Assembly (NCBI GenBank): GCA_030527585.1
Contig: JAUNAL010000001.1
Span: 1-40,395 of the forward strand
Reading direction: 5' to 3'
Length of the DNA: 40,395 nt
Origin: Candidatus Saccharimonadota bacterium
GTDB lineage: Bacteria; Patescibacteriota; Saccharimonadia; Saccharimonadales; Saccharimonadaceae
In this document: piece after piece, positions 32,889 to 37,463 of the stretch
How positions within the stretch are numbered: position 1 is the stretch's first letter
Layout of the letters: every line of letters starts with the position of its first letter
Notes under the pieces: model-generated
The model's database searches: none
Told to the model about the DNA's origin: nothing
Seen by the model: only the letters and a program-made list of their open reading frames with translations
Position numbers and translations under genes: made by a program

Positions 32889-35111
32889 ATGTGGAAAATC
32901 ATCGCGCGAAACACCTTTACTCTTTTTAACCTCGTTAACCTTGTCCTCGCTCTCATGGTCTTTTTCGTCGGTAGCTATAAAAACATGCTCTTCCTCGGCG
33001 TCGTCATCGCAAATAGCCTTATCAGTATTATCAACGAAATTCGCGCCAAAAAAATCGTCGATAAAATGCGCCTAATTTCCGAACAAAAGCCAACTATCTT
33101 GAGAAACGGGCAAACCACTCAAATCTCCCCCGAGAAAGTCCAAAAAGGCGACCTGACCGTCCTCGCCCTCGGCGACCAAGTCCTCTTCGATAGCGAAGTC
33201 GTCTCCGGGACCGTCGAAGTCAACGAATCTTTCATTACCGGTGAACAAGACAACATTATTAAAAATCCAGGCGACGAACTTATCTCTGGGAGCTTCATTG
33301 TTTCTGGTCGAGCCGAAGCAAAAGTTAAACATATCGGCGACGAAAATTTCGTCAACAAACTCGAGCAGGACGCCAAAACCATCAAAACCGCCGATTCTAA
33401 ACTCTTTAAGCTCATGAACGACATCGTCAAATATATCTCCTGGACCCTAATTCCAGTCGGCGCACTTCTCCTCTGGAGCCGTTTCCGCGCCGAAGCTAAC
33501 GCCACCGAAGCTGTCACCAGTACCGTTGCCGCCCTCATCAATATGATCCCCGAGGGACTCATTCTTCTTACTTCTTCCGCCCTTGCCCTCTCAACTCTTC
33601 GGCTTAGTCGTAAAAAAGTCCTCGTCCAGGACCTCTACTCAATCGAAACTCTCGCTCGTGTCGATACGATCTGCCTCGATAAGACCGGGACCCTGACGAC
33701 CGGCAACATGTCCGTCAAAGACCTCGTCCCGGCTAAGGGAAGCTCCGCAAAGGCCCTCCAGGACGCACTAGAACTCATTTTAAGCCATCTTCCGGCCGAT
33801 AACGCCACAAGTCGCGCTTTGCATGCAAAGTTTGCGAGAGACCCCAAATTTGAAGCCACAAGCGAAATCGATGTTGAAGTTATCCCATTTTCGTCCGATC
33901 GCAAGTATTCCGGCGTTAAACTTAAAAACACCGAATATCTCCTCGGTGCCCTTGAATTTATCACCAAGAACAAGGATTACCAAAAACAAGAAAAAGCCCT
34001 TAAAGGAACCTATCGCATCCTCGCCGTCCTCAAGAAAACCGACAAAGCCGAAACTCTCCTCGGTTTCGTCCGTCTTGAAGACGAAATCCGCAAAGACGCT
34101 CCTGAAATCATCAATTATTTTTACGACAATCATATCGAACCAAAAATCATTTCTGGTGATGATCTTGAAACCGTCAAAAACATTACCGCTCTTGTTGGCG
34201 TAAAAGATTTGAACGGCATCGATCTCTCAAAAGTCGACCGCCCAAACTACAACAAGCTCGTCAAAGAATACTCAATTTTTACTCGCGTCAAACCGGCCGA
34301 GAAAAAAGCCCTCATCGAAGCTCTCCGAAAACAGGGAAAAACCGTCGCCATGACCGGCGACGGTGTAAACGATATTCTCGCCATGAAAGAAGCCGATTGC
34401 TCGATTGCTATCGGCGACGGATCTGATGCTGCCCGTCGCGCCGCAAAGCTTGTCCTCTTAAAATCCAATTTTTCCGCCGTCCCCTCAATTATCGACGAGG
34501 GCCGCCAAACTATCAATAACCTCGAGCGCTCCGCAACTCTCTTTCTCGCCAAAACCGTTTATGCCTCGATTCTCGCCGTCGTTTTTGTCATCCTCCCGTT
34601 CTCCTATCCATTCAGTCCAATCGAAATGTCCCTCCTCAATTTTGTCTGCATCGGTTTTCCGGGCGCCGTCCTTGCTCTCGAGCGAAACACCGACCGCGTC
34701 AAAGACCGCTTTATCACCAATATCGTCGAATATTCTTTCCCAATTGGTTTCACCGTCACCATCGCCATGCTTACTCTCTCTATTATTTCCGAGTTTAATA
34801 ATTTCTCTCGCTTCGAGCTAACAACTACCTCACTTTTCATCACATTTGCTATCGATCTCGTTTTGATTTATTGGGTTTCCCGTCCTCTCAATAAACTCCG
34901 CACCGCTTTGCTCTTCTTCGTTGTCGGTATTATGGCACTCGCCTTTGGCATCCCGTTCATTCGCGACTTTTTCGAGTTTACTTTCCTCACCAAAAACGGC
35001 CTCATTATCGTCAGCGCAACCATCGCCGCCGCTCTCGGCGTTTTCTTCCTAATGCACTGGCTAATGAGTCTCCTTGCCAAAAAGCTCCTTTTTCCACCAA
35101 AAAATTCTTGA
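32889..35111 (+). CDS. Cation-transporting P-type ATPase (CaxP-like)
   Basis: 740 aa. It is a membrane pump that exports or imports a cation, probably Ca2+ or another divalent ion by family. Membrane helices lie near 10-45, 205-245 and, as six C-terminal segments, about 555-735. The actuator domain TGE loop is seen as FITGEQDN near 116. TM4 has NMIPEGLILL, the P-E-G-L pattern of CaxP-like pumps. The phosphorylation site is CLDKTGTLTTG near 260, and the hinge is MTGDGVNDILAMKEADCSIA near 490. The stop TGA overlaps the -35 of the next gene. Confidence 0.93.
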   Translation: MWKIIARNTFTLFNLVNLVLALMVFFVGSYKNMLFLGVVIANSLISIINEIRAKKIVDKMRLISEQKPTILRNGQTTQISPEKVQKGDLTVLALGDQVLFDSEVVSGTVEVNESFITGEQDNIIKNPGDELISGSFIVSGRAEAKVKHIGDENFVNKLEQDAKTIKTADSKLFKLMNDIVKYISWTLIPVGALLLWSRFRAEANATEAVTSTVAALINMIPEGLILLTSSALALSTLRLSRKKVLVQDLYSIETLARVDTICLDKTGTLTTGNMSVKDLVPAKGSSAKALQDALELILSHLPADNATSRALHAKFARDPKFEATSEIDVEVIPFSSDRKYSGVKLKNTEYLLGALEFITKNKDYQKQEKALKGTYRILAVLKKTDKAETLLGFVRLEDEIRKDAPEIINYFYDNHIEPKIISGDDLETVKNITALVGVKDLNGIDLSKVDRPNYNKLVKEYSIFTRVKPAEKKALIEALRKQGKTVAMTGDGVNDILAMKEADCSIAIGDGSDAARRAAKLVLLKSNFSAVPSIIDEGRQTINNLERSATLFLAKTVYASILAVVFVILPFSYPFSPIEMSLLNFVCIGFPGAVLALERNTDRVKDRFITNIVEYSFPIGFTVTIAMLTLSIISEFNNFSRFELTTTSLFITFAIDLVLIYWVSRPLNKLRTALLFFVVGIMALAFGIPFIRDFFEFTFLTKNGLIIVSATIAAALGVFFLMHWLMSLLAKKLLFPPKNS

Positions 35112-35137
35112 CAAAAAGCGGGGGGGGGGGGTATTAT
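35108..35137 (+). promoter_or_regulatory. Poly-G promoter of the surface-protein gene
   Basis: Perfect TTGACA (35108-35113) and TATTAT (35132-35137) are 18 bases apart; 12 of those bases are one run of G (35120-35131). Loss of one G would give the ideal 17-base spacer. An alternative -10, TATAAA, overlaps at 35135-35140. AAGGAG (35158-35163) then precedes the GTG start by 10 nt. Confidence 0.85.
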
Positions 35138-35173
35138 AAAAACAAGAGTACTATAAAAAGGAGAATAATTATT

Positions 35174-36361
35174 GTGAAAAAAACAATCTTATTTGGTGCC
35201 GCTGCTGCAGTCGCAACTCTTGGTCTCGCCGGCTTTATGCCGACTAGCGTCAGTGCTGCCACCAATTATACTTATGACAGCTTCGTCACTAGCGGTGGTT
35301 ATGGTGTCAAGACCGAAATCAGCGACGCTATTATGAACCTAAACCGCGACAACGCTACTACTACCGGCGCTTTCTCAAAACTTGGCGAAACTCAAAAACT
35401 CTCTGATGGCATTGACGAGCGCGTCAATGTCGAAATCAACCCATCAGAAATGGCTCACGGAGAACTTTTTGAGGTTTCTTTAGCTCTCCGAAACGCAGCT
35501 AACGAATACGTCTCAGAATATGTCGTTATGGCTCAAAAAACCGCTGAAGGTGAAGTTACTGTTACTGGTAAAGATGATACTAAAATCAAAATCACCAAAG
35601 ACGGTGTCTATACTTTCAAATGGGAAATGTTCATCAAAGAGAAGAACACCTTCGTCAAATTCTCCGTTTTAGACGGTGAAACCGTCCTCGGTACTACTGG
35701 CGAAGATGACCTAGACGCCCTTTCTACTGCTGACACTAAAAACCCAATCGCCGAACAAGAGGGCGTTACCGTTAAATACCTCTGGTTCTGCAACATCCAG
35801 GTCGCCGAGGGCGTTAATGTCCACTTCTTAAATCAGGAATTCTCTAGCGACCTCGGTGAAGACGCGCCAGTCGCAACCGTCGCCGTTACTAGCGAAAAGA
35901 AACTCGAGGGCAAGCTAACTATCACCGAAGCAACCGAAACCCCTGTCTCCGCTGACACAGAAGAAGCTCTCTTCGCTTACGACATCAAATACACCGTAGG
36001 CGGAAAAGAAACCGAAATCACCGCCGAAGATGGTCACGAGTTCAAATTTACTATCGCGCTCCCAGAAGCAATGCAGGGTAAAGATAACTATTACCTTACT
36101 TTGCTCGAGGACGGGGAATTGACTGACGAAAAAATCGCCGGCGTAGTTAGCCAAGATGGCAAAAGCGTTACTTTTGTTCTTAATCACTTCTCGACCTGGG
36201 TCCTATCCGCCGCGACTATTGTCGAAGATGCGACCCCGCTCGCGCCAAAAACCGGCTCGGCGACCGTCGCAACCAACGCCGTCGCGACCACCACTCTTAC
36301 GGCAACCCTCGCTGCGGTTGTCGCAATGATTGGTATTGCTGTTTTCGCCAAGAAACACTAA
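35174..36361 (+). CDS. Sortase-anchored surface protein (LAPKTG)
   Basis: 395 aa. Signal peptide: MKKTILFGAAAAVATLGLAG with likely cleavage after SVSA near residue 28. A middle of two beta-rich regions follows, the second ending VTFVLNHFSTWVLSA, typical of repeat-type surface domains. The C terminus has the sorting signal LAPKTGSA, a hydrophobic segment and a KKH tail, so it is cut and linked to the wall by sortase. The motif is LAPKTG, not LPxTG. Start: GTG 35174 after AAGGAG; an earlier in-frame start would translate the poly-G tract as glycines and would place no signal peptide at the N terminus. Expression is probably phase-variable through the poly-G promoter. A terminator follows. Confidence 0.9.
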   Translation: MKKTILFGAAAAVATLGLAGFMPTSVSAATNYTYDSFVTSGGYGVKTEISDAIMNLNRDNATTTGAFSKLGETQKLSDGIDERVNVEINPSEMAHGELFEVSLALRNAANEYVSEYVVMAQKTAEGEVTVTGKDDTKIKITKDGVYTFKWEMFIKEKNTFVKFSVLDGETVLGTTGEDDLDALSTADTKNPIAEQEGVTVKYLWFCNIQVAEGVNVHFLNQEFSSDLGEDAPVATVAVTSEKKLEGKLTITEATETPVSADTEEALFAYDIKYTVGGKETEITAEDGHEFKFTIALPEAMQGKDNYYLTLLEDGELTDEKIAGVVSQDGKSVTFVLNHFSTWVLSAATIVEDATPLAPKTGSATVATNAVATTTLTATLAAVVAMIGIAVFAKKH

Positions 36362-36370
36362 GCCAAGCAA

Positions 36371-36397
36371 AAAAGAAGCCAGAGGGAGGCTTCTTTT
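36371..36397. terminator. Bidirectional terminator between surface protein and tsaD
   Basis: Ten-base arms, AAAAGAAGCC and GGCTTCTTTT, around AGAGGGA, with T runs on both strands. It serves both convergent genes. Confidence 0.9.
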
Positions 36398-36410
36398 TTG
36401 TCCCCGAGAA

Positions 36411-37463
36411 TTATTCCTCGACCGAAACTCTTGGATAAATATTCAATTTATACGGATCCATCGGCTGAACCCCCGCCAAAATCTCATAATACGCCGCCGC
36501 GGCCACCATTGCTCCGTTATCTCCCGACAATTTTGCTTCAGGGAAGAATACCGCCGGAATTTTGCCGGCCTCCGCCAACCCCGAAAAAATCTTTCGCAGT
36601 TCATCATTCGCACTCACGCCCCCCGCCACCACTACCGAGCGTACCTCTGGGAATTCTGAAACCCCCGCCTTAATTTTCTTCGTCAAAATCTCTATCGCCG
36701 TTTTCTGAAAACTCGCCGCAAAATCCGCCACCTGCTTCGCCGACAAAAAATTCTTCAAATCATAACTCGGATGCGAAATCGGCAGCCCCAACTCTTTCTG
36801 AACCGCCCGAAGAACTGCCGTCTTAAGCCCCGAAAACGAAAAATCTAAATCCGCCACCTTCGGATGTGGCAACTTATACTTTTCTACATCGCCAGATTCC
36901 GCCGCCTCCGCAATCGCTGGACCGCCAGGATATGGCAACCCCAAAATCTTCGCCACCTTATCAAAACACTCCCCAACCGCGTCATCATTCGTCGTCCCCA
37001 CGATCTCAAACTTATCATGCTCCGGCATATACAAAATTTGCGTATGTCCCCCTGAGACCACAAGTGCAAGCAGGGGGAAAGCAGGAAAATGTTTTAACTC
37101 AAGCCAGTTTGCATACACATGCGATTTCAAATGATGCACCGCATAAAGCGGCTTATCGTGCAAAATCGCCAACGTCCTCGCCGTCAAAGTTCCGATTAGG
37201 AGCGACCCAAGAAGTCCCGGCGCATGCGTTACCGCAATCGCATCAATTTCATCCCAAGAAGCCCTTGCCTCTAAAAGCGCTTTCTCGACTACCGGCATCA
37301 TCACCTCAAGATGTGATCTTGCCGCAACCTCTGGGATCACCCCACCATACTCCGCAAAAATATCAATCTGCGAAACCACCACATTCGATAAGATCTTTCG
37401 TCCGTCCTCTACGACTGCCGCCGCCGTTTCATCGCAACTTGTTTCAATTCCTAAAATCTTCAT
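36411..37463 (-). CDS. tsaD: tRNA N6-adenosine threonylcarbamoyltransferase TsaD
   Basis: 350 aa. TsaD transfers threonylcarbamoyl to A37 of tRNAs that read ANN codons, working with TsaB and TsaE. It begins MKILGIETSCDETAAAVVED. The metal site HHLKSHVYANW (H-x-x-x-H) near 115, the VVSGGHTQ block near 138, the FSGLKTAV block and VVVAGGVSANDELR near 270 are all intact. It is on its own leaderless promoter. TsaB and TsaE are not in the window. Confidence 0.97.
   Translation of the reverse strand: MKILGIETSCDETAAAVVEDGRKILSNVVVSQIDIFAEYGGVIPEVAARSHLEVMMPVVEKALLEARASWDEIDAIAVTHAPGLLGSLLIGTLTARTLAILHDKPLYAVHHLKSHVYANWLELKHFPAFPLLALVVSGGHTQILYMPEHDKFEIVGTTNDDAVGECFDKVAKILGLPYPGGPAIAEAAESGDVEKYKLPHPKVADLDFSFSGLKTAVLRAVQKELGLPISHPSYDLKNFLSAKQVADFAASFQKTAIEILTKKIKAGVSEFPEVRSVVVAGGVSANDELRKIFSGLAEAGKIPAVFFPEAKLSGDNGAMVAAAAYYEILAGVQPMDPYKLNIYPRVSVEE

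Follow-up and report, generated by a model that had tools for sequence, protein, structure and literature searches.

A run of 12 G residues separates the -35 and -10 hexamers of a promoter that precedes a putative surface-protein gene in a Saccharibacteria genome. Based on the sequence of this promoter and on comparison with related genomes, we consider it highly probable that the tract is a spacer switch operating by slipped-strand phase variation, of the kind described for porA of Neisseria meningitidis and tp0126 of Treponema pallidum. The focal architecture is a real, non-random feature. It recurs before predicted membrane and surface proteins elsewhere in the genus, its tract length differs between nearly identical promoters, and ordinary promoters of the genus favor the spacing that loss of a single G would give.

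RESULTS

The focal promoter and its gene

In the window, that is, the whole stretch of 40,395 nucleotides that was analyzed, the initial annotation had described TTGACA and TATTAT boxes 18 bases apart with a G12 run between them, and this description is exact (Table 1). The G run accounts for 12 of the 18 spacer nucleotides and lies strictly between the two recognizable hexamers, the promoter scores 11/12 in the consensus scan, and the -10 box is 36 nt from the GTG start of the surface gene. The tract is the longest G run of the 598-kb genome (84% complete) and is located within a 128-kb contig. Since 12 G residues give a spacer of 18, the assembly probably caught a state of reduced expression; loss of one G (11 G) would move the spacer from 18 to 17, the native optimum.

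Table 1. Features of the focal locus (window coordinates) and related sites elsewhere
Feature	Position or locus	Strand	Basis or remark
-35 hexamer TTGACA	35108-35113	+	read from sequence; consensus scan
AAAAGC, part of spacer without G run	35114-35119	+	sequence
G12 tract, proposed slippage switch	35120-35131	+	sequence; class comparison
-10 hexamer TATTAT	35132-35137	+	sequence; consensus scan
AAGGAG, Shine-Dalgarno-like	35158-35163	+	inferred from sequence
395-aa secreted surface protein gene (putative)	35174-36361	+	GTG start, ORF, tail motif
P-type (E1-E2) cation ATPase gene	32889-35111	+	directly upstream of surface gene
tsaD	36411-37463	-	downstream neighbor of surface gene
Coding poly-G/poly-C tracts (9-11)	C26:4341 (L005), C30:67 (L007), C5:228 (L211), C12:8716 (L215), C37:5954 (L222)		
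W[DE]xL-type targets	L013, L014, L020, L031, L034, L065, L073, L088		

The TGA stop codon of the ATPase gene (35109-35111) overlaps the -35 hexamer, so that transcripts of the ATPase gene might run on into the surface gene. No clear terminator was seen between the two genes, and transcription continuing from the ATPase gene may supply a basal level of surface-gene transcript.

The 395-aa product has a signal-peptide-like N-terminus, an LAPKTG motif, a hydrophobic C-terminal membrane helix, and a KKH end, and the elements of a sorting signal are all present by eye (LAPKTG...AAVVAMIGIAVFAKKH). These features of the focal protein, together with the enrichment of membrane proteins among the targets of the promoter class described below, agree with the original proposal that the tract precedes a surface-protein gene. 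For the more specific proposal of wall anchoring, the evidence points both ways. Anchoring is favored by the signal peptide, the tail, and two matches to sortases (PF04203) in this genome, a family also present in 60/60 relatives. On the other side, the motif is APKTG instead of canonical LPxTG, and this departure from the strict motif was accompanied by the lack of a match to any Pfam or NCBIfam anchor model. A reading of APKTG as a sorting signal nevertheless gains support from the (A/V)PxTG sorting-like tails that recur in several other targets of poly-G promoters, and the protein is probably sortase-anchored. No family was obtained for it from Pfam, NCBIfam, or PDB, and an AlphaFold prediction made without an alignment gave a beta-rich fold plus a C-terminal helix at low confidence (mean pLDDT of 46).

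The gene order of ATPase and tsaD is conserved in relatives. Their ATPase-tsaD interval contains no comparable gene in many cases (e.g., L243, L244, L250, L251, L253, and L264), codes for a different, apparently membrane-type protein in L246, L258, L261, and L263, and has no poly-G at this position in any relative compared. Because the interval is thus empty or differently filled in relatives and is without poly-G, the focal promoter and its surface gene are, as judged from gene order, a lineage-specific insert. The search for orthologues of the 395-aa protein returned one weak match, to the C-terminal anchor, in one genome among those searched; with no surface-protein orthologue, there is no orthologous tract for comparison with the focal G12. 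Positions 35112-36410 of the window correspond to a variable site in the genus, which is empty or occupied by different genes (L243-L271).

A recurring class of poly-G promoters

A gapped pattern search for the -35/poly-G/-10 architecture found about 80 distinct poly-G-spacer sites in 49/174 congeneric genomes, compared with 3 matches for a reversed control pattern; these sites are partly related by descent and not phylogenetically independent, and therefore the p values given below for the class are optimistic. In nearly all cases, the G run lies on the non-template strand, directly next to the -10 box. A C run was also considered as an equally good spacer tract and was rejected, since the C-run version of the architecture was found at 3 loci in 170 genomes versus the approximately 80 G sites. 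Across the order, the architecture is patchy (8/257 genomes), and where present outside the genus, it occurs 2 to 6 times per genome (G080, G219, G253, and G355).

Two further observations concern the members of this class. The motif AAGGTCA was seen about 10 nt after the -10 box, near the expected transcription start (L023, L026, L038, L045, L056, L062, L064, and L070), and it is present within 60 nt in 14/80 poly-G promoters, with about 0.3 expected. Poly-G promoters in four MAGs (L084, L087, L086, and L076) stand before proteins of Firmicutes-like appearance, which points to contamination or transfer; the Firmicutes-like targets of G014, G040, G039, and G210 were few and were retained in the counts.

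Spacing between the -35 and -10 boxes

The ideal spacing of 17, reached with 11 G, had been put forward from the focal promoter, and the native spacing of the genus points to the same value. When 246 kb of genus DNA was scanned for TTGACW...TATAAT-like pairs without poly-G and with spacers of 14 to 22 nt, these ordinary promoters peaked at 17 nt (12 counts; next best, 3). Poly-G promoters, unlike ordinary ones, scatter over 14 to 22 nt (Fisher p = 0.0004). Within the class, G count and non-G spacer length are anti-correlated (rho = -0.36, p = 0.0009), and the variance of total spacer length is 5.2 versus 9.3 when shuffled. Such compensation between G count and non-G length is expected under selection on the total -35/-10 distance. 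The share of class spacers at 16 to 18 was no higher than among shuffled pairings. Furthermore, the promoter family of MSKxTK proteins has spacers of 18 to 21 in all assemblies, consistently above 17; either low states were captured in most of them, or the rule of spacing is too simple as it stands.

Other G tracts in the genome

A pattern search found only five tracts of at least 10 G in this genome, three of which fall between -35- and -10-like boxes. Four poly-G promoters were identified in total, consisting of G12 with spacer 18 and G9 with spacer 15 on C6, G10 with spacer 16 on C21, and G10 with spacer 17 on C31. Apart from the focal tract, one of them stands before the gene of a 617-aa VPNTG surface protein and the other two before genes of TM2-domain membrane proteins, the TM2 label having been assigned by sequence recognition without a library search. 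Promoters of the relatives of the TM2 genes are without poly-G in most other species, from which it follows that tracts come and go. The TM2-like genes' promoters are at C21:26424-26451 and C31:9422-9450 (L071 and L072), and the one on C21 comes after an apparent 5S rRNA gene and a hairpin.

Five more tracts of at least 9 G are located in open reading frames, largely those of putative surface or membrane proteins (Table 1), and translational phase variation at these coding poly-G/poly-C tracts is likely. The tract on C26, for example, reads as out of frame at 11 G and as open to the contig end at 10 G.

Targets of the promoter class

The products of genes downstream of poly-G promoters (74 distinct proteins) were compared with 82 neighboring proteins by means of a simple hydropathy rule, with no trained predictor. 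A signal-peptide-like or hydrophobic segment in the first 60 residues was present in 44/74 targets versus 18/82 neighbors (p = 2e-6), and any membrane-like segment was present in 55/74 versus 23/82 (p = 1e-8). A second class of targets was also noticed, with no signal peptide, a short polar start, and an N-terminal W[DE]xL-like motif (Table 1).

Tract variability and mismatch repair

Tract length ranges from 8 to 19 G across the class and, between both paralogues and species, changes faster than the flanks. Among promoter pairs with 86 to 94% identical flanks, G count differs in all five of the five independent homologous or paralogous pairs (16/17, 14/10, 11/10, 11/12, and 10/15). At 80 to 82% flank identity, some pairs differ (9/8 and 9/11) and two are equal (10/10 and 10/10). 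The G16 and G17 contigs of G123 were considered as a single locus split by tract length, and this was rejected, as other differences in their flanks suggest paralogues.

MutS was found in 0/30 Saccharibacteria and in 11/14 control genomes, and no genuine MutL was found in 20 relatives, where matches were short, fragmentary, and below the cutoff. An earlier study likewise found neither MutS nor MutL in Saccharibacteria (PMC8406219), and the small size of the focal genome, its sortases, and its lack of detectable MutS agree with placement in this group. In Neisseria without mismatch repair, switching of mononucleotide tracts rises 100- to 1,000-fold (PMC3639595).

Sites of the class lie within 500 bp of contig ends more often than expected (17 versus 4.2). 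Mixed tract lengths in the reads would cause such a pile-up and may account for it, as may repeated promoters.

DISCUSSION

We propose that G12 forms a hypermutable spacer in a promoter of the sigma-70 type. During replication, mispairing of slipped strands would add or remove G residues and so move the distance between the -35 and -10 boxes to either side of its optimum of 17 nt, and sister cells would consequently differ in the amount of surface protein that they make. Expression would be maximal at 11 G and weaker at 10 G or at 13 and more, and in cells lacking MutS and MutL, the G tracts should be especially unstable. At least four promoters of this type, the focal one included, are present in this genome, and the class extends through the genus; its promoter tracts and the coding poly-G tracts would together constitute a surface phasome.

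The initial annotation had likened the promoter to the porA switch, and this likeness is reinforced by the 17-nt optimum and the recurrence of poly-G spacers before surface genes, as well as by the different G counts of near-identical promoters and the lack of detectable mismatch repair. In porA of N. meningitidis, 11 G gives high expression, 10 G gives 2-fold-lower expression, and 9 G gives far lower expression (PMC3639595). Both systems have a G tract within the promoter spacer of a surface-protein gene. In the Saccharibacteria, by contrast, the product is a putative wall-anchored protein, such promoters occur several times per genome, and neither MutS nor MutL was detected; in addition, the effect on expression was measured for porA, whereas for the focal promoter it is predicted. 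The tp0126 promoter of T. pallidum also has a poly-G between -35 and -10, and its transcription is optimal at a total spacing of 17 (cited in PMC7864442). That system shares the position of the tract and the optimum with ours, but it has been studied experimentally, and its product is an OmpW-like outer-membrane protein of a spirochaete. Homopolymers in the opc promoter of N. meningitidis and the tprL promoter of T. pallidum also alter transcription (PMC7864442); their tracts, however, overlap the -35 or -10 region and act by a mechanism other than spacing, while the focal tract is strictly between the boxes.

Three other explanations were weighed. The poly-G could be a fixed structural or regulatory element whose length matters little, such as a regulator binding site or a G-quadruplex or A-form DNA in the non-template strand. 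The near-constant placement of the G run on the non-template strand next to the -10 box and the scarcity of C-run loci (3 versus about 80) speak for such an element, and regulators acting together with poly-G length have been discussed for the tpr promoters of T. pallidum (PMC7864442). A binding site would, however, keep its length, and the tracts vary from 8 to 19 G, differ between near-identical promoters, and are compensated by the non-G part of the spacer; we therefore regard a fixed element as unlikely.

Slightly less probable still is a neutral homopolymer, that is, a G run drifting longer without mismatch repair and placed in a promoter by chance, with no selected switching. Strong strand asymmetry and target bias speak against chance placement, as does the confinement of tracts of at least 9 G in this genome to promoter spacers and coding regions, largely those of putative surface or membrane proteins. 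Moreover, 125/174 congeners, which presumably lack mismatch repair as well, show no such promoter. In favor of drift are the failure to detect MutS or MutL and the restriction of the tract to the inserted gene of the focal lineage. An artefact of assembly or of two-color sequencing chemistry, finally, is scarcely credible. Poly-G artefacts do exist, and many class members are near contig ends, but the focal tract is inside its contig, flanked on both sides by unique sequence and by correct promoter boxes, and the pattern recurs across independent assemblies, including complete Treponema chromosomes.

If the focal tract is indeed a spacer switch, its kind is already known, and it is the setting, an episymbiont genus with no detectable MutS or MutL and many such promoters, that appears to be new. 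Searches covering part of the literature turned up no account of phase-variable promoters in Saccharibacteria or in any other candidate-phyla bacteria, making the present observation a lead rather than proof of priority. In Gracilibacteria BD1-5, likewise a candidate-phyla bacterium, a hypervariable repeat gene gives a predicted surface protein local variation driven by repeats (PMC6851277). There, however, the repeats are coding 9-mers with synonymous variation, and no promoter switch is involved.

It is plausible on balance, if far less secure than the switch itself, that this episymbiotic, MutS/MutL-less genus of Saccharibacteria carries a surface phasome built largely of poly-G spacers, with several surface-protein promoters switching independently in each cell, in which random surface profiles of individual cells could set which host is bound or allow escape from phage, host, or immunity. 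Predicted switches on surface genes that can be counted open to testing how Saccharibacteria choose, keep, or change their bacterial hosts, since metagenomes already available can supply the tract lengths for comparison with host or habitat. The known loss of mismatch repair in this group also gains a possible functional consequence.

Because the same architecture is present in numerous gut Clostridia, Bacilli, and Treponema, poly-G spacer switches may also be more frequent among host-associated bacteria than one would judge from the few pathogens studied. It is widespread in other phyla, and the matches listed there came from Clostridia, Bacilli, Treponema, Helicobacter, Moraxella, and further groups. 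Among the matches listed as L092-L210, TTGACW-polyG-TAnnAT was seen in many of these gut lineages and in termite-gut Nomurabacteria, sometimes more than once per genome.
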